Shown: in pieces, positions 48,195 to 56,355 of the stretch
Numbering within the stretch: the stretch's first letter is position 1
How the letters are laid out: each line of letters opens with the position of its first letter
Assembly: GCF_012272825.1 (NCBI RefSeq)
Contig: NZ_JAAWWS010000156.1
Coordinates: forward strand, 139,588 to 203,587
From: Wenzhouxiangella sp. XN79A
GTDB lineage: Bacteria > Pseudomonadota > Gammaproteobacteria > Xanthomonadales > Wenzhouxiangellaceae
Direction of reading: 5' to 3'
Length of the DNA stretch: 64,000 nt
The notes under the pieces: generated by a model
Databases searched by the model: none
Seen by the model: the letters and a program-made list of their open reading frames with translations, nothing else
What the model was told of the DNA's origin: nothing
Made by a program: the position numbers and the translations under genes

Positions 48195-49511
48195 ATGGCG
48201 GCGACCGGTGCGCGACCCCGACTGGCCGCGGCGCATGCGCTGACCGAGGTGCTCGACCGCGGCCGCGCGCTGACCGACGCGCTGGACGGCCTCGGCGACC
48301 GGCTCGACGCCTCCCGCGACCGCGCCCAGGTCCGCCGACTGTGCAACCGGGTGCTGCGCAACTGGCCGGCGCTGGATGCGCGCGTGCGGGCGCGGCTGCG
48401 CAAGCCGCTGGCCCGCCGCAATCGCTGGATCCACTTCCTGCTGGCGATCGCCGTGGACGAACTCGACGACGCACGCGAACCGGCGCCGGCGGTGGTCCAC
48501 GCCGCGGTCGAAGCGGTGCGCGCGGGCGGCGCCGCGCCGATGGCCGGCCTGGTCAATGCCGTGCTGCGCACCGAGCTGCGCGCGCCGCCCGGCCCGGAGC
48601 CGGGCGACGACGACGTGCTGCGCTACGGGATGCCCGGCTGGCTGGCGCGACGGATCCGGACCGACTGGCCGGACGACGCCGATGCGATCCTGGCGGCCGG
48701 CAATCGACCGCCGCCGACCTGGCTGCGGGTCAACCGGCGGCGAACCACCGTCGAGGCCGCACGCGCGGCGCTGGAAGCGGCCGGCCTGCCCTGCACCGTC
48801 GATGCCCGGCTGCCCGACGCGATCCGACTCGAGCGGCCCGCGGCGATCGGCCAGCTGCCCGGGTTTCGCGAAGGTCACCTGTCGGTCCAGGACGCCGGCG
48901 CCCAGGTCGCCGTCGACCTGCTCGACCTGGCCGCCGGCCAGCGCGTGCTGGATGCCTGCGCCGCGCCGGGCGGCAAGGCCGCCCACATCCTCGAGCGCGC
49001 CGATGTCGAGCTGCTCGCGATCGACCGCGACGCGGCCCGCACCCGGCGCATCGAGACCGGCTGGGCCCGGCTGGGCCTGAGCGGCCGGGCTGCCGTGGCC
49101 GACGCCGCACGACCCGACCCGTGGTGGGACGGTCGGCCGTTCGACCGCATCCTGGTCGATGCGCCGTGCTCGGCCACCGGCGTGCTGCGCCGCCACCCCG
49201 ACGTCCGCTGGCTGCGGCGCGAGGCCGACATCGAGGCCAACGCGGCGATCCAGGACGCGATCCTCGAGGCGCTGTGGTCGCTGCTGAGGCCGGGCGGTTT
49301 GCTTGTCTACGCCACCTGTTCGATACTGCACGCGGAGAACCGAGACCGGGGCCGCAAGTTCCTTGAACGTCAATCCGATGCCGAGCCCGTCGCCTTCGAA
49401 CTGCCCGAGACTCGGGCCGTCGACCCGGGTCGCCAGATCCTGCCGGGCAGCCTGGATCGTGATGGCTTCTATTACCTTGTTCTGCGCCGGCTGCCGGCCG
49501 ACGGGGCCTGA
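48195..49511 (+). CDS. rsmB: 16S rRNA (cytosine-967) methyltransferase RsmB
   Basis: 438 residues. N-terminal NusB-like domain, then SAM-dependent methyltransferase: DACAAPGGKAAHILE, VDAPCSATGVLRRHPDVRW (catalytic-type cysteine region) and the ATCSI motif with the second cysteine. GAGGGCGG precedes ATG. The 3' end overlaps the next gene by 50 bases. Confidence 0.96.
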   Translation: MAATGARPRLAAAHALTEVLDRGRALTDALDGLGDRLDASRDRAQVRRLCNRVLRNWPALDARVRARLRKPLARRNRWIHFLLAIAVDELDDAREPAPAVVHAAVEAVRAGGAAPMAGLVNAVLRTELRAPPGPEPGDDDVLRYGMPGWLARRIRTDWPDDADAILAAGNRPPPTWLRVNRRRTTVEAARAALEAAGLPCTVDARLPDAIRLERPAAIGQLPGFREGHLSVQDAGAQVAVDLLDLAAGQRVLDACAAPGGKAAHILERADVELLAIDRDAARTRRIETGWARLGLSGRAAVADAARPDPWWDGRPFDRILVDAPCSATGVLRRHPDVRWLRREADIEANAAIQDAILEALWSLLRPGGLLVYATCSILHAENRDRGRKFLERQSDAEPVAFELPETRAVDPGRQILPGSLDRDGFYYLVLRRLPADGA

Positions 49512-49995
49512 CGGCGGGACGCTGCAGCTCGACCCGGTCGTGCGCTGGGTCGGCGAGCAGCTGGTCGTCGAGACCGGCGTGAACTTCCAGCCCAGCCCGG
49601 CCATCCGCGAGGCGCTGGAGCACGGCGTCGAGCTGCAGATCGATCTCGAAGTGCGACTCGGCCGCCGCTACGGGCCGATCGCCCGCGAACTGGAGACCCG
49701 GACCGTTGCGCTGCAGATCCGCTACCTGCCGCTGCTCGAACAGTGGCAGCTCCAGGAAGGCGCGACGACCCGGACCTTTCCGCGTTTCTGGCTGCTGCGC
49801 GAGGCGTTGGCCGAGCCGCGCGTGCTGCCCACCGGGCTGACCGCAGCGGCTGCCCCCGAGCGTCCCCTGCAGCTGCAGATCCGGGCCCGGATCAACCGCG
49901 ACGCGCTGCCGCCGCCGATGCACCTGCCCACCCTGTTCTCCGCCCAGTGGCACCCGGGCGGCAGCTGGCATACATGGCACTTCGGACCTTCCTGA
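49462..49995 (+). CDS. DUF4390 protein, probable lipoprotein
   Basis: 177 residues from ATG 49462, overlapping rsmB. The N-terminus MASITLFCAGC could be a very short lipoprotein signal; a GTG one codon upstream is possible. The rest (LQLDPVVRWVGEQLVVETGVNF ... LEVRLGRRYGPIARELETRT) matches the DUF4390 family, which sits before ntrYX in many beta- and gammaproteobacteria. Role unknown. Overlaps the kinase gene by 22 bases. Confidence 0.75.
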   Translation: MASITLFCAGCRPTGPDGGTLQLDPVVRWVGEQLVVETGVNFQPSPAIREALEHGVELQIDLEVRLGRRYGPIARELETRTVALQIRYLPLLEQWQLQEGATTRTFPRFWLLREALAEPRVLPTGLTAAAAPERPLQLQIRARINRDALPPPMHLPTLFSAQWHPGGSWHTWHFGPS

Positions 49996-52127
49996 AACGG
50001 CTTCTTCGCGCCCTGCCGCTGGCGGCCTTCGCCGGGCTGCTGCTGTCGGCGTTGTTCCTGGTCGCCAACGTCGAACAGGAATCGGGCCAGCTCGGCCGGA
50101 TGAGCCTGTGGATCTTTCTGGTCACCGGCATCGCGCTGCTGGTGCTGCTGGCGGCGATCGCGACCCGGCTGGTGCGGCTGGTCCGCGACGTGCGCCAGGG
50201 CCGCCCCGGGGCGCGGCTTCGGGCCCGGCTGGTCTCGATCTTCACCGCACTGGCGCTGCCGCCGGTGGTCATCGTCTGGCTGTTCTCCACCGAGTTCCTG
50301 ACCGAGACCATCGCCGGCTGGCTCGACGCCGGCACCGAGGCCGCGCTGGCCGACTCGATCGAGCTCGGCCAGCTGTTCCTCGACCTGCGCACCCGCGAGG
50401 CGCGCGACCGGATGCGCCGGATCGCCGACGGCCTGCCGCCGGGCGGCGACGAGGAGCGGCGGCTGGACTACCTGTTCCGGCAGGTGTCCTCGGCCGGACC
50501 GGCCGAGCTGACCCTGCTCGACCCGTCCGGCCAGGTCGAGGCGCTGGTGCACATCGATCCATCGCGCATCGTCGCCGACCTGCCGTCGTCCTTCGCCCTG
50601 TCGCAGGCCGGGCGCGGCCAGACCTGGGCGGCCGCCGAACCGAGCGAGAACGGGCTGCAGATCCGGGTGCTGCTGCCGGTCGAGGGGGCGCTGGGCGAGG
50701 CGCACGCGCTGCAGGGCATCTTCCCGCTGCCCGACGAGTTCGCCGCCCTGGCCGGTCGGATCGAGCAGGCCTACTTCCGACAGGAAAACGTGGCCTTCCT
50801 GCGTCAGCGGCTGCAGCAGAGCTTCGTGCTGATCCTGTCGCTGGTCCTGGCGATGACCGCCCTGCTGGCGATTCTGATGGCCTTCAATGCCGCCAAGCGG
50901 GTCGTGCGGCCGATCCGAGAGCTGGCCGACGCCACCGAACTGATGCGCCGCGGCGAGTTTCCCGAAACGCTGGCGGTGCCCAGCCGCGACGAGCTGGGCT
51001 TCCTGGTCGAATCGTTCAATGAAATGGCCACCGAACTGGAGGCCGCCCAGCGCGAACTGAACACCGAGCGGGCCTACCTGCAGGCGGTGCTCGGCCGGCT
51101 GTCGGCCGGCGTGCTGGCCTTCGATGCCGGGCGTCGGCTCAAGGCCATGAACGAAAGCGCCGGGGCCATCCTGGGCCTGGACCTGGCCGAGGTCCTCGGC
51201 CTGACCCCGACCGAACTGGCCGAAGGCCGGCCGGCGCTGGCGGCGATGTTCGACGAGGTCGACCGCCGGATCGACCAGGGCGGCGCGGCGTGGCGACGGG
51301 AAATCAAGCTGGAGCGGGCCGATACCGCGCTGGCGCTGGTCTGCCGAGGTTCGGTGCTGCCCGGCGACGGCGAGCGTCCAGCCGGCCACGTGGTGGTCTT
51401 CGACGACGTCACCGAACTCGATCAGGCCCAGCGCCAGGCGGCCTGGGCCGAACTGGCCCAGCGCCTGGCGCACGAGGTCAAGAATCCGCTGACGCCGATC
51501 CGGCTGGCCGCCGAGCGCCTGCAGCTGCGCCTGGAACCGGCGCTGGACGACGCCCACCGTCCGGTCCTCGACCGGGCCACGCGCACCATCATCCACCAGG
51601 TCGACGCGCTGCGCGAGCTGGTCGATGCCTTCGGCGACTACACCCGGCCGGGCGTGGTCCGGCGCGAGCCGCTCGACATCGAGGCGCTCATCCGCGACGT
51701 CGTCGAGCTGTGGACCGCCGGCGACAGCGGGGTGACCGTGGTGCTGGCGCTGGAGGCCGGCGAGGTCCGCCCGCTGGGCGATCCCGGCCAGTTCCGGCAG
51801 ATCCTGAACAACCTGATCCAGAACGCCCGCGAAGCCCATCCCGACGGCGCGCCACGGCTGACCATCCGGACCGACCTCGGCAGCCACGACGACCGGGACT
51901 GGCTGGTGCTGGAACTGCGCGACGACGGCCCCGGCTTCGATCCGACGCTGCTCGACCGCGTGTTCGAACCCTACGCCTCGACCAAGCCGCGCGGCACCGG
52001 GCTGGGCCTGGCCATCGTCCATCGCATCGTCGATGCCATGGGTGGCCGGATCCGGGCCGACAATCCGCCCGGCGGCGGCGCCCGGCTGACCCTGGAGCTG
52101 CCGGTGCCTGCGCCTGCCGCAAAGTGA
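49974..52127 (+). CDS. ntrY: NtrY-type membrane histidine kinase
   Basis: 717 residues. Several N-terminal helices and a periplasmic part, a helix at about 278-300, a HAMP segment (AAKRVVRPIRELADATELM), a PAS domain, HisKA with H500 in RLAHEVKNPLTPIRL, and an HATPase with NLIQNAREA and GTGLGLAIVHRI. The helix count and HisKA sequence match NtrY. It is paired with the ntrX-like regulator 49 bases on, and further with trkAH. Confidence 0.93.
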   Translation: MALRTFLKRLLRALPLAAFAGLLLSALFLVANVEQESGQLGRMSLWIFLVTGIALLVLLAAIATRLVRLVRDVRQGRPGARLRARLVSIFTALALPPVVIVWLFSTEFLTETIAGWLDAGTEAALADSIELGQLFLDLRTREARDRMRRIADGLPPGGDEERRLDYLFRQVSSAGPAELTLLDPSGQVEALVHIDPSRIVADLPSSFALSQAGRGQTWAAAEPSENGLQIRVLLPVEGALGEAHALQGIFPLPDEFAALAGRIEQAYFRQENVAFLRQRLQQSFVLILSLVLAMTALLAILMAFNAAKRVVRPIRELADATELMRRGEFPETLAVPSRDELGFLVESFNEMATELEAAQRELNTERAYLQAVLGRLSAGVLAFDAGRRLKAMNESAGAILGLDLAEVLGLTPTELAEGRPALAAMFDEVDRRIDQGGAAWRREIKLERADTALALVCRGSVLPGDGERPAGHVVVFDDVTELDQAQRQAAWAELAQRLAHEVKNPLTPIRLAAERLQLRLEPALDDAHRPVLDRATRTIIHQVDALRELVDAFGDYTRPGVVRREPLDIEALIRDVVELWTAGDSGVTVVLALEAGEVRPLGDPGQFRQILNNLIQNAREAHPDGAPRLTIRTDLGSHDDRDWLVLELRDDGPGFDPTLLDRVFEPYASTKPRGTGLGLAIVHRIVDAMGGRIRADNPPGGGARLTLELPVPAPAAK

Positions 52128-52176
52128 TCTGCGCTATCCTTGGCGCGGTTTCAAGACCCCGCCGTCCACCCGCCCG

Positions 52177-53478
52177 ATGCCCGAACGCATACTGATCGTA
52201 GATGACGAGCCGGACATCCGGGAGCTGATCGGCGAGATCCTCGACGATGAAGGCTTCCAGACCGACCTGGCCGGCGACGCCGACCAGGCGCGCCGCTGCC
52301 TGGCCGAACACCCGGTCGACCTGGTCCTGCTCGACGTCTGGATGCCGGGCTGCGACGGCGTGACCCTGCTGAAGGACTGGCGCGAGCGCGGCGAGCTGCT
52401 CTGCCCGGTGGTCATGATCTCCGGCCACGGCTCGGTCGAGGCCGCGGTCGAGGCCACCCGCCACGGCGCGTTCGATTTCATCGAAAAGCCGGTCTCGATG
52501 GCCCGCCTGCTGGCCACGATCAAGCGCGCCCTGAGCGAGGGCCGGCGCGAATCGCCGATCGGCGCGACCGGCGACGAATCCGACGGCCTGGAGCCGATCG
52601 GTCGCAGCGCCGGCATCGAGCGGGTCCGCAGCGCGATCGCCGAGGTCTGCGCCGGGGCGCCCGGCCACCTGCTGATCGAAGGCGAGCCCGGCACCGGCTG
52701 CACGACCCTGGCCCGCTGGGTGCACGCCCAGGCCGGCGGTGGGCGCTTCGCGCACGCGGTCTGCGACCCGGCCGGCGACCGGCTGGCCGTCTGGACCGAC
52801 GCGCTCGACCGCGACGATCCGCCCCGCACCGTCTACCTCGACCGCCTGCACCAGCTCGACGAGGCCGGCATCGAGCGTCTCGGCGACCTGCTTGCCGCGG
52901 TCGAGAGCCGGGGCGGCCGCGCGGTGCGCGTGATCGCCTCCCGGCTGCCCGGCGCCGGCGCACCGCCGGCGGCCCTGCTGGCCAAGCTGGGTCCGTATCG
53001 AGCCCGGCTGCCGGCGCTCAGCGAGCGCGCCGAGGACATTCCCGACCTGGTCCGGCTGCTGGCCGAACGGCTGCCGGCCGAGGACGGCCTGACCTACCGG
53101 CCCATCCCGCTGCCGGCCCAGAACCGGCTGCGCCAGCACGACTGGCCCGGCAACCTGGCCGAGCTGGTCGACGTGATCCGCGGCCTGCTCGACGGCCGCG
53201 ACAGCCCGGTCGACGTCGACGACGTCGAAGCCGCGCTGGCCCGGGCGGCCCGCAACGAGGCCAGCGGCGCCACGCTGACCGACTCGCCGCTGTTCCAGCT
53301 GCCGCTGCGCGAAGCCCGCGAAGCCTTCGAACGCCAGTACCTGATCGCCCGCCTGCGCCAGGTCGGCGGCAGCGTCGGGCAGCTGGCCGACGCGGTGGAA
53401 ATGGAACGCACCCACCTCTATCGCAAGCTCAAGCAGCTCGGCATCGACCCGAAGAAGATCCAGGAGGACGACGCATGA
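52177..53478 (+). CDS. ntrX: NtrX-like response regulator with degenerate AAA+ domain
   Basis: 433 residues. The receiver (1-120) is intact, with D53 in LVLLDVWMPG and K104. The central domain (about 140-370) keeps the AAA+ fold but Walker A reads GEPGTGCTT (169-177; the lysine is C175), Walker B reads TVYLDRLH with arginine in place of glutamate, and no GAFTGA loop is found. The C-terminal Fis-type HTH is intact (about 378-430). Sigma-54 activation is therefore unlikely; it may bind DNA without ATP hydrolysis. The last codons carry the AGGAGG of the next small ORF. Confidence 0.9.
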   Translation: MPERILIVDDEPDIRELIGEILDDEGFQTDLAGDADQARRCLAEHPVDLVLLDVWMPGCDGVTLLKDWRERGELLCPVVMISGHGSVEAAVEATRHGAFDFIEKPVSMARLLATIKRALSEGRRESPIGATGDESDGLEPIGRSAGIERVRSAIAEVCAGAPGHLLIEGEPGTGCTTLARWVHAQAGGGRFAHAVCDPAGDRLAVWTDALDRDDPPRTVYLDRLHQLDEAGIERLGDLLAAVESRGGRAVRVIASRLPGAGAPPAALLAKLGPYRARLPALSERAEDIPDLVRLLAERLPAEDGLTYRPIPLPAQNRLRQHDWPGNLAELVDVIRGLLDGRDSPVDVDDVEAALARAARNEASGATLTDSPLFQLPLREAREAFERQYLIARLRQVGGSVGQLADAVEMERTHLYRKLKQLGIDPKKIQEDDA

Positions 53479-53531
53479 TCCTGTCCGAACCGCGCCCGAC
53501 CGAAGACCGCGCCGCAACGGGACGCAGCTGA
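53475..53531 (+). CDS. 18-residue coupling ORF between ntrX and trkA
   Basis: Starts as ATGA on the ntrX stop and ends as TGATG on the trkA start. A perfect AGGAGG lies seven bases upstream (53462-53467), whereas trkA itself has no Shine-Dalgarno. It reads MILSEPRPTEDRAATGRS. The most likely role is to deliver ribosomes to trkA by reinitiation; a real peptide function is not shown. Confidence 0.55.
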   Translation: MILSEPRPTEDRAATGRS

Positions 53532-54907
53532 TGCGCATCATCATTCTCGGCGCCGGCCAGGTCGGCTCCGGCATGGCCTACTCGCTGTCGCGCGAGGAAA
53601 ACGACATCTCGGTCGTCGATACCGACCCCGAGCGGCTGCGCGAGCTGCAGGAAAAGCTCGATATCCGGACCGTGCTCGGCCACGCCGCGCACCCGGAAAC
53701 CCTGATCCGGGCCGGCATCGAGGACGCCGACCTGCTGATCGCGCTGACCAACTCCGACGAGACCAACATGGTCGCCTGCCAGGTCGCCTATTCGCTGTTC
53801 AACACGCCGACCAAGGTGGCCCGGGTCCGCGCCGCCGACTACCTCTCGCATCCCGAACTGTTCACCCGCGAGCATGCGCCGATCGACGTGCTGATCAGCC
53901 CCGAGAAGCTGGTCACCGACCACATCCAGCGCCTGATCGAATACCCCGGCGCGCTGCAGGTGCTGGACTTCGCCGACGGCCGCGCGCAGCTGGTCGCGAC
54001 CCGCGCCATCCGCGAGGGCAAGCTGGTCGGACGGGCGCTGAAGAGCCTGCCCGAAGAACTGCCGCCCGGCGTCGACGCCCGGGTCGCGGCGATCTTCCGA
54101 CGCGACGAGGCGATCATGCCGGAAGGCGACACCGTCATCGAAGTCGACGACATGGTGTTCTTCCTTGCCCCCACCCACAAGATCCGCGACGTCATGGGCA
54201 CCTTCGGCGCGACCTCCGGCCCGGCCCGACGCGTGCTGCTGGCCGGCGGCGGCAACATCGGTGCCGCGCTGGCCCGGCGGCTGGAGCGCGACCACCACGT
54301 CAAACTGATCGAGCGCGATCCGAAGCGCGCCGAGCGGATCGCCGAGGACGTCGACACCACCATCGTGCTGGTCGGCGACGCGGCCAACGAGGACCTGCTG
54401 CGCGAGGAAGGCATCGACGAAATGGACGTCTACTGCGCGCTGACCAATGACGACGAGGCCAACATCCTGTCGTCGATGCTGGCCAAGCGGATGGGTGCGA
54501 AGAAGGTCATCACCCTGATCAATCGCCCGGCCTACGTCGACCTGGTCGAGTCCGACCGGATCGACGTGGCCGTCAGCCCCCAGCAGATCACGATCGGCGC
54601 GCTGCTGACGCTGATGCGCAAGGGCCACATGGTCCGGGTCCACTCGCTGCGGCGCGGCGCGGCCGAGGCGATCGAAGTGGTCGCCCACGGCGACCCCGGC
54701 CGGTCGCGGATCGTCGGCCGCGAGATCGGCTCGATCCCGCTCCCCGAATCGACCTCGATCGGCGCCATCGTGCGCGGCGACGAGGTGGTCATCGCCCACC
54801 ACGACGTGGTCATCGAGCCGGAGGACCACGTCATCCTGTTCGTCGCCGACAAGCGCGAGGTCGCCGAGGTCGAGCGGCTGTTCGCGGTCGAAGCCGTGTT
54901 CGTCTGA
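53531..54907 (+). CDS. trkA: Trk system K+ uptake regulator TrkA
   Basis: 458 residues with two RCK (TrkA_N) modules: MRIIILGAGQVGSGMAYSLS and RRVLLAGGGNIGAALARRL, each with the GxGxxG nucleotide fold, and two TrkA_C parts. Cytoplasmic NAD(H)/ATP-gated partner of TrkH. It shares one base with trkH (TGATG). Confidence 0.97.
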   Translation: MRIIILGAGQVGSGMAYSLSREENDISVVDTDPERLRELQEKLDIRTVLGHAAHPETLIRAGIEDADLLIALTNSDETNMVACQVAYSLFNTPTKVARVRAADYLSHPELFTREHAPIDVLISPEKLVTDHIQRLIEYPGALQVLDFADGRAQLVATRAIREGKLVGRALKSLPEELPPGVDARVAAIFRRDEAIMPEGDTVIEVDDMVFFLAPTHKIRDVMGTFGATSGPARRVLLAGGGNIGAALARRLERDHHVKLIERDPKRAERIAEDVDTTIVLVGDAANEDLLREEGIDEMDVYCALTNDDEANILSSMLAKRMGAKKVITLINRPAYVDLVESDRIDVAVSPQQITIGALLTLMRKGHMVRVHSLRRGAAEAIEVVAHGDPGRSRIVGREIGSIPLPESTSIGAIVRGDEVVIAHHDVVIEPEDHVILFVADKREVAEVERLFAVEAVFV

Positions 54908-56355
54908 TGCGCAGCTACGCGCCGGTCCTGCGGGTCGTCGGGCTGCTGCTGATGTTCCTGTCGGCCGGCTTCGTGCCGCCGCTGGTCTTCGCCCTGGCCA
55001 GCAACGACGGCGGCGCCGTGCCGTTCCTGATCAGCCTGGTCACCGTCGCGCTGATCGGTGCGCTGCTGTACGTGCCGCTGCGGACCAACCGCCGCGAGCT
55101 GCGGGTGGCCGACGGCTTCCTGGTCGTCGTCGCCTGCTGGGGCGCGGTGGCGCTGGCCGGCGCGCTGCCGCTGTACCTGGTGCTGGACATCGGCCTGGCC
55201 GACGCGGTGTTCGAGTCGACCTCGGGCATCACCACCACCGGCGCCACCGTGCTGTCGGGGCTCGACGACATGCCGATCTCGATCCTCTGGTACCGCCAGC
55301 AGCTGCAGTGGATGGGCGGACTGGGCATCATCGTCCTGGCCGTGGCGATCCTGCCGATGCTCCGGATCGGCGGAATGGAGATCTACAAGGCCGAAGTCAC
55401 CGGCCCGGTCAAGGAAAACCGGCTCACCCCGCGCATCGCCGAGACCGCCAAGGCGCTGTGGCTGATCTACATCGGCCTGACCCTGGTCTGTACGCTGGCG
55501 CTGTGGGCGGCCGGCATGACCTTCTTCGACGCCATCACCCACGCCTTCACGACCATTTCCACGGCCGGGTTCTCGACCCACGACGCCTCGGTGGCCGAGT
55601 TCGACAGCGCGCTGATCGAGTGGCTGCTGGTGCTGTTCATGTTCGTTGCCTCGATGAACTTCGCGCTGCACTTCCTGGCGCTGCGGCGGGCCACCGCCCA
55701 GGTCTACTTCAACGACCCGGAGCTGAAGCTGTTCGGCATCCTGCTGCTCGGCATCTCGATCCTGATCACCGTGCTGCTGTGGCGCCAGGGCGTCTACGGC
55801 GACGTCTGGGAATCGCTGCGCTACGCCGTGTTCCATGCCGTGTCCTACACCACCACCACCGGCTTCACGACCGCCGACGTGTATCTGTGGCCCGGCACGC
55901 TGCCGCTGCTGATGATCCTGATTTCGGGGCTGGGCGGCTGCGCCGGCTCGACCACCGGCGGGTTCAAGATCGTGCGCGTCTACCTGGTGTCCAAGCAGGG
56001 CCTGCGCGAACTCAAGCGGCTGATCCACCCGCGCTCCGTGGTGCCGCTGAAGTTCGGCAGCCGCACCCTGAAGCCGGAGGTCGCCAACGCGGTCTGGGGC
56101 TTCGTGTCGCTGTACATCGTCTGCATCGTCATCCTGACCCTGATCGTCTCGAGCCTGGAAGAGGACCTGGTCACCTCGGTGTCGGTGGTGTTCTCGGCGA
56201 TGAACAACCTGGGCCCGGCGCTCGGCGAGGCCGGCGCCAACTGGGGCGGGCTGACCGATGCGACCAAGTGGCTGATGAGCTTCGCCATGCTGCTCGGCCG
56301 ACTCGAGATCTTCACCGTGCTGGTCCTGCTGACACCGACCTACTGGAAACACTGA
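54907..56355 (+). CDS. trkH: K+ transporter TrkH
   Basis: 482 residues, inner membrane. Four pore loops: STSGITTTGATVLSG, TISTAGFSTHDAS, TTTTGFTTADVY and SAMNNLGPALG, as in TrkH/KtrB. Directly follows trkA and should form the K+ channel of the Trk system. Confidence 0.97.
   Translation: MRSYAPVLRVVGLLLMFLSAGFVPPLVFALASNDGGAVPFLISLVTVALIGALLYVPLRTNRRELRVADGFLVVVACWGAVALAGALPLYLVLDIGLADAVFESTSGITTTGATVLSGLDDMPISILWYRQQLQWMGGLGIIVLAVAILPMLRIGGMEIYKAEVTGPVKENRLTPRIAETAKALWLIYIGLTLVCTLALWAAGMTFFDAITHAFTTISTAGFSTHDASVAEFDSALIEWLLVLFMFVASMNFALHFLALRRATAQVYFNDPELKLFGILLLGISILITVLLWRQGVYGDVWESLRYAVFHAVSYTTTTGFTTADVYLWPGTLPLLMILISGLGGCAGSTTGGFKIVRVYLVSKQGLRELKRLIHPRSVVPLKFGSRTLKPEVANAVWGFVSLYIVCIVILTLIVSSLEEDLVTSVSVVFSAMNNLGPALGEAGANWGGLTDATKWLMSFAMLLGRLEIFTVLVLLTPTYWKH

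Follow-up and report, generated by a model that had tools for sequence, protein, structure and literature searches.

Decay of the ATPase site of NtrX in Wenzhouxiangella sp. XN79A and in its beta- and gamma-proteobacterial relatives

The gene order rsmB-plrP-kinase-regulator-trkA-trkH is known around PlrSR, a Bordetella member of the NtrYX family (PMC13001219). In the available part of that paper, the DUF4390 protein PlrP is a proposed third component of NtrYX systems, the H-box of PlrS (HEIKN, akin to the HEVKN found here) is given as typical of kinases that double as phosphatases, and the introduction states that NtrX of beta-proteobacteria lack the AAA+ domain. The accessible text of a comparative study counts NtrX among the sigma-54 activators and infers nitrogen regulation from it (PMC12194929). 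Within the wider NtrC family, contact with sigma-54 is listed as lost by the homologues TyrR, DhaR, HupR and VpsR (available sections of PMC3162934). Moreover, Caulobacter NtrC is without GAFTGA and requires its ATPase residues, and Caulobacter NtrX has already been described as GAFTGA-less (available sections of PMC10274813). Here we compare the NtrYX locus of Wenzhouxiangella sp. XN79A with these systems.

The ntrX locus and the motifs of its product

The window (the whole stretch of DNA analysed, 64,000 nucleotides) comes from an assembly of 3.75 Mb in 171 contigs (G000) and contains an ntrX gene with an ntrY-type kinase gene immediately upstream (Table 1). The true start of ntrY is probably the ATG near 49974. 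Its product carries HAMP, PAS_4, HisKA and HATPase_c domains above the Pfam cut-offs, whilst the NtrY_N model reaches 18.7 bits, under the cut-off of 23.2. Since a homologue of PlrP is encoded upstream, this NtrYX system is probably of the three-component type.

Table 1. Features of the ntrX locus, in positions of the window
Feature	Position	Strand	Basis or remark
rsmB, conserved neighbour upstream	48195..49511	+	PF01189, PF22458, PF01029
DUF4390 gene, PlrP homologue	49303..49995	+	PF14334, 75 bits against a cut-off of 27
ntrY sensor kinase, H-box HEVKN and ATPase boxes present	49743..52127 (ORF start as listed)	+	
GCTATCCT, putative -10 element of an ntrX promoter between ntrY and ntrX	52133..52140	+	44 nt before ntrX
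ntrX response regulator (receiver, pseudo-AAA+, Fis-type HTH)	52177..53478	+	ORF, 433 aa
ntrX start and stop codons	ATG 52177, stop 53476-53478	+	ORF
Asp53 codon, receiver phospho-acceptor, kept	52333..52335	+	Asp in 254/254 orthologue rows
Degenerate Walker A GEPGTGCT	52681..52704	+	Cys175 codon 52699-52701 in place of Lys
Degenerate Walker B, Asp222-Arg223 instead of Asp-Glu	52840..52845	+	Alignment
Lid motif WPGNLAEL, Ala328 in place of the sensor II Arg	53143..53166	+	Alignment
C-terminal Fis-type HTH region, kept	53290..53451	+	HTH_8 at residues 381-421
trkA, neighbour downstream	53531..54907	+	NCBIfam TrkA, 692 bits; synteny
trkH	54907..56355	+	PF02386

Four Pfam models score above cut-off on the NtrX protein: Response_reg, Sigma54_activ_2, AAA_lid_14 and HTH_8 (26.1 bits, cut-off 22). 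The full sigma-54 activator model PF00158 falls short (14.6 against 20.2 bits), whereas the shorter PF14532 passes (26.6 bits, cut-off 25). NtrX is the top NCBIfam match at 259 bits. The narrow NtrX equivalog NF051870 requires 600, so the protein cannot be filed there; in the broad sense it has the domains of NtrX, namely a receiver, a GAFTGA-less sigma54-type AAA+ domain and a Fis-type HTH. The nearest NtrX in named records are those of a Wenzhouxiangellaceae bacterium (53% identity) and an uncultured proteobacterium (51%).

A sequence-only reading had reported that the Walker A lysine, the Walker B glutamate and GAFTGA are missing from this protein whilst D53 and the HTH are intact, and each of these observations was borne out. 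Walker A reads GEPGTGCTT with Cys175 at the lysine position, Walker B reads YLDRL with Arg223 at the glutamate position and Asp222 kept, and a search of the protein for a GAFTGA-like string found none. We identified further losses, of the arginine that we take to be sensor II (GNLAEL for GNxREL) and of the FREDLYYRL stretch, including its arginine residues, which act in trans. Only 46 residues lie between the column of the Walker A Lys and that of the Walker B Asp; the five outgroup rows with GAFTGA have 64, and ATPase-intact NtrX a median of 59. The receiver residues D9, D10, D53, S82 and K104 are all present. The marks of a sigma-54 bEBP (GAFTGA in loop 1, Walker A Lys together with Walker B Asp-Glu, and a PF00158 match) are therefore not found in this NtrX.

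Aligning the protein with NtrX of relatives had been proposed as a check. The NtrX of another, independent genome of the genus (G004) is 76% identical and carries the identical Cys and Arg substitutions; in two more (G001, G005) the Walker A Lys is replaced by Arg, and the Walker B Glu by Pro or His. Sequencing error is therefore a very unlikely source of the motif losses.

Sigma-54 control as such has not been lost from the genome, since it contains rpoN and four strong PF00158 domains, three of which have all motifs with a GAFTGA-like loop (L001-L003). The fourth (L004:1501-1992, on G000:C14) reads GERGTGK, LDE and GAFTDA instead of GAFTGA; the GAFTDA variant is also found in VfmH of Dickeya, according to the available text of PMC10714721.

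The middle domain is predicted to have an AAA+ fold. AlphaFold modelled the protein with a pLDDT of 85.9 and a pTM of 0.56, and the six top Foldseek matches of this model are Brucella NtrX chains (32-33% identity). By VIA-align, Brucella NtrX and NtrC4 (3dzd) tie, with Z scores of 23.0 and 23.8. Domain placement is unreliable at the pTM values obtained (0.56 and 0.53), and whole-chain matches to three-domain structures have an rmsd of about 15-17.

Distribution and history of the ATPase-site residues

NtrX sequences were drawn from 61 related genomes, from named genome contigs and from a class-wide draw in which 238/369 genomes had an NtrX-type C-terminal match at E 1e-35; part of the latter was taken (30 loci from each of two scans, plus 80 regions). 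The beta-proteobacterial sample came from the order of Chitinimonas taiwanensis, presumably Burkholderiales, where 58/80 genomes matched at E 1e-32, giving 60 matches. We read 60 beta proteins, comprising 59 of these 60 matches and L292 from another beta genome; the sixtieth match (G441) coincides in position with G380, which was read as L249 and has Met for Lys. Walker columns were defined by MAFFT alignments. The first alignment held 214 rows (203 beta/gamma NtrX, 6 alpha NtrX and 5 GAFTGA-bearing homologues), and the final set, after adding beta rows and removing duplicates, 254 beta/gamma rows.

No GAFTGA-like string was found in any beta/gamma NtrX, either in the first alignment (0/203) or in the final set (0/254), and it is also absent from the 6 alpha NtrX rows and from Brucella NtrX. 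The loss of GAFTGA is thus old and NtrX-wide, as the Caulobacter protein also indicates. The proposal that the protein has left sigma-54 control fares accordingly: a working sigma-54 activator is very unlikely without the motifs, but leaving was not this gene's own step. Only the loss of the ATPase residues is recent, as one of about 21 such losses.

The ATPase residues themselves vary widely. Of the 203 rows of the first alignment, 50 combine Lys, Asp and Glu; Lys is missing from 48, Asp from 117 and Glu from 107, the last count scoring as changed the 77/203 rows with a conservative Glu to Asp replacement. In the 254-row set Lys is missing from 100 rows and the three residues occur together in 49. 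All three are intact in 5/5 outgroup rows and 5/6 alpha rows, the sixth alpha row being without Asp. As a control, 49 other NtrC-family proteins from the same scan were examined, with Lys in 49/49, Glu in 49/49 and Asp in 48/49, and so in these alignments motif loss is not general to the superfamily. Ten of these 49 have no GAFTGA-like string, yet keep Lys and Glu. Together with Caulobacter NtrC, which needs its ATPase residues (PMC10274813, available sections), they argue that loss of GAFTGA alone does not entail independence from ATP. In one NtrX-like protein (L254, from G283, a genome of about 1.6 Mb) the P-loop region is unrecognisable, perhaps a further stage of decay.

Trees were built with FastTree on the receiver and lid/HTH columns, omitting the AAA+ core, and the loss counts depend on these trees. 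They were rooted on the five GAFTGA-bearing homologues, so the separation of NtrX from those rows is partly by construction; with this root, the window protein falls among other NtrX, the family clades around L008 having support of 91-99. The Walker A Lys column requires 19 changes on the 214-row tree and 21 on the 236-row tree, and on both losses alone suffice. Of the 21 loss groups in the 236-row tree, 13 consist of a single row; the beta rows fall together in one Lys-less clade of 35 (support 100) and the window genus in another of 4 (support 99). With 29 later beta rows added (265 tips) the minimum is 22 changes, against 32 if regain is disallowed. This difference is due to a single protein, L346, and loss without regain, which holds on the two smaller trees, therefore fails on the largest. 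Walker B Glu requires 43-46 changes, or 22 if Asp is allowed.

Two associations with Lys loss were rejected. The L1 region is short in 48/72 Lys-less rows versus 10/164 Lys-bearing rows, but an independent-pair sign test gave a median p of 0.375 and shared ancestry may explain the association. The same test linking loss of Lys to loss of Glu gave a median p of 1.

The remainder of the protein is under clear constraint. D53, S82 and K104 are invariant in 254/254 rows, and D9 and D10 are Asp in all 252 rows that are not gapped at these positions. Among the 74 rows of a 227-row set that are without the Walker A Lys, 42% retain the Walker B Glu and 27% the sensor II Arg, and a FREDLYYRL position that is Arg in 86% of intact rows is mostly Asp (54%). 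The same Lys-less rows retain G169 (92%), G172 (97%), L281 (97%), D287 (97%), W323 (99%) and N326 (99%), with G325 also within 92-99%; these seven positions likely hold the fold. For the closest pair of genes dN/dS is 0.22 in the receiver, 0.58 in the AAA core, 0.53 in the lid and 0.18 in the HTH, from which we conclude that the gene is under constraint, with a looser middle. In a wider pair (G000/G005) the values are 0.45, 0.85 (AAA), 0.65 and 0.14, higher except in the HTH. A fast AAA core was ruled out as a mark of ATPase loss, since pairs bearing Lys behave alike, with a dN 1.7-4x that of the receiver.

The beta-proteobacterial NtrX deserve separate mention. The Walker A Lys is absent from 59/60 of them. 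Their lengths are 413-433 aa in 58 cases and 505 and 509 aa in the other two, which argues that they still hold the middle domain. Pfam found Sigma54_activ_2 (PF14532) and AAA_lid_14 in 22/22 rows of a mixed alignment that includes five beta proteins. Moreover, the model of one beta protein (L082; pLDDT 85.6) matches AAA+ domains of sigma-54 activators, and superposes on FlrC (6luf) over 212 residues with an rmsd of 2.6 and a Z score of 21.6. Length, Pfam matches and this fold model together argue that in the beta relatives sampled the domain is degenerate rather than absent; what the introduction of PMC13001219 words as a missing domain looks like a dead one.

The sole Lys at the Walker A column among the 60 beta NtrX is that of L346 (from G465), a protein nested within the beta clade of Lys-less rows. 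This Lys may reflect reversion at a site that is degenerate in other respects, or a matter of alignment.

The trkAH neighbourhood and a putative ntrX promoter

The trkAH genes next door had been suggested as a target of NtrX on the grounds of adjacency. We counted the synteny in loci with at least 500 nt downstream of ntrX. At the order level trkA is the next gene in 38/45 Lys-bearing and 6/6 Lys-less loci, in other gamma loci in 40/51 and 9/13, and in beta and alpha loci in 8/37 and 4/6, respectively. The trkAH neighbourhood is ordinary synteny that does not track loss of the lysine, and adjacency thus gives no ground for the suggestion; co-transcription is the simpler reading.

A candidate internal promoter lies between ntrY and ntrX and resembles that reported upstream of plrR. 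The pattern G[CGT]TAT[ACG][AC]T, chosen after inspecting the sequences, occurs 39-53 nt before ntrX in 16/32 family loci where shuffles give an expectation of 0.23, and in 0/480 50-mers of ntrY coding sequence. A CTTG-N9-CAAG inverted repeat at 52139 was considered as an NtrX site and rejected: one occurrence in the window is about the chance expectation for eight fixed bases in 64 kb, and the repeat is not kept in the sister species.

Proposed mode of action, rival explanations and related systems

Taken together, we hold it probable (about 0.8) that the window NtrX is a DNA-binding regulator switched by phosphorylation and independent of ATP, built on a pseudo-AAA+ scaffold, in which GAFTGA was lost early and the ATPase site decayed later. 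It would be the regulator of a PlrP-NtrY-NtrX-type system of beta/gamma-proteobacteria. NtrY would phosphorylate Asp53, altering the dimer or oligomer state of NtrX, and the Fis-type HTH would then activate or repress housekeeping-sigma promoters by binding DNA close to them. We infer that the middle domain serves as a scaffold between receiver and HTH, or in dimer formation, keeping the AAA+ fold without binding or hydrolysing ATP and without contacting sigma-54, though ATP might be bound without the Walker A Lys. GAFTGA would have been lost at or near the origin of NtrX; the ATPase site would then have become dispensable and decayed repeatedly, one such decay falling in the common ancestor of those four members of the genus that have NtrX. 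The DNA-binding regulator of the sequence-only reading is supported, in that a phospho-switched role fits the intact receiver and HTH.

We weighed three rival explanations. If the gene were a pseudogene in early decay, with the whole gene losing function, the relaxed AAA core and lid (dN/dS 0.53-0.58 in the closest pair) would be expected, as would the low identity of NtrX to G004/G005/G001 (76/55/53%) next to that of TrkA (96/90/85%) and NtrY (81/64/60%). Against this, the frame is open and full-length in four species of the genus, receiver and HTH have dN/dS of about 0.2 in that same pair, and the switch residues are invariant. Nor do the genus members without an NtrX match help it, as these assemblies are incomplete (G002 85%, G003 83%): G003 has ntrY and trkA fragments on separate contigs and G002 is without all three genes, as in an assembly gap. 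Incomplete assembly thus explains the apparent loss of the whole system, and we regard a pseudogene as very improbable.

The vacated pocket could instead bind a nucleotide as a signal without hydrolysis, be it ATP with low affinity or a second messenger, for example c-di-GMP. Lys-less rows keep the P-loop glycines G169 (92%), G172 (97%) and G174 (85%) and the Arg after Walker A (84%), an Arg that is among those VfmH needs for c-di-GMP (PMC10714721, available text), and the fold matches include structures titled c-di-GMP-bound FleQ and VpsR with c-di-GMP binding. The same glycines and Arg are however found in ATPase-intact rows and so may be ancestral; we hold this explanation unlikely. Least credible is continued partnership with sigma-54, as an inactive or modulating subunit in mixed hexamers with an intact bEBP. 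The genome does offer rpoN and four strong PF00158 domains as partners, but the L1 loop, the Walker B Glu and the FREDLYYRL Arg positions are gone from this NtrX, and the GAFTGA count of 0/254 extends the objection to all beta/gamma NtrX read here.

Returning to the ATP-independent regulator, the wider pattern suggests that in NtrX an AAA+ ATPase activator has turned repeatedly, in nature, into a transcription factor that works without ATP: after the loss of GAFTGA the Lys would have been lost about 21 separate times in beta/gamma, in beta at the root or close to it, and have apparently come back once (L346), with the fold and phospho-switch constrained throughout. We lean towards this reading, slightly less so since the Lys return in L346 was found. 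If true, Bordetella PlrR and Neisseria NtrX would count as pseudo-AAA+ regulators and not as domain-less proteins, and the printed statement that beta NtrX are without an AAA+ domain would be corrected. The usual label of sigma-54 activator probably does not fit the window NtrX, and the beta/gamma NtrX read here argue against its use in PMC12194929, whose group, in the text available, is Acidithiobacillia. Moreover, a family in which receiver and HTH stay constant while the ATPase site ranges through intermediates from complete to absent would allow a test of the role left to an AAA+ domain without ATPase activity. As far as the literature searched shows, the extent and repetition of ATPase-site decay, and a beta domain that is dead and not missing, seem to be new.

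Lastly, we compared the locus with known systems. TyrR, DhaR, HupR, VpsR and the NtrC of R. capsulatus and Caulobacter are GAFTGA-less members of the NtrC family proposed or shown to act at housekeeping promoters, and the available sections of the two sources do not describe repeated loss of the ATPase site within one such family (PMC3162934, PMC10274813). According to the latter, R. capsulatus NtrC requires ATP binding and Caulobacter NtrC its ATPase residues, whereas the window NtrX is without the key residues; among those named, VpsR alone is reported there to act without ATP, and it is a precedent for the mode of action proposed here. Brucella abortus NtrX (5m7n, 5m7o, 5m7p), the top PDB sequence match of the window protein (1.8e-60), has three domains in the same order and is likewise GAFTGA-less. 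In contrast to the window NtrX, it has the Walker A Lys and the Walker B Asp-Glu as well as a longer L1 region, and its structures are titled with ATP and with ADP. PlrR/NtrX of the beta-proteobacterial PlrSR systems has the same gene cluster as the window (PMC13001219, available part). The beta relatives that we read share with the window NtrX a degenerate ATPase site, and on the tree their loss of Lys is an event separate from that in the window genus.
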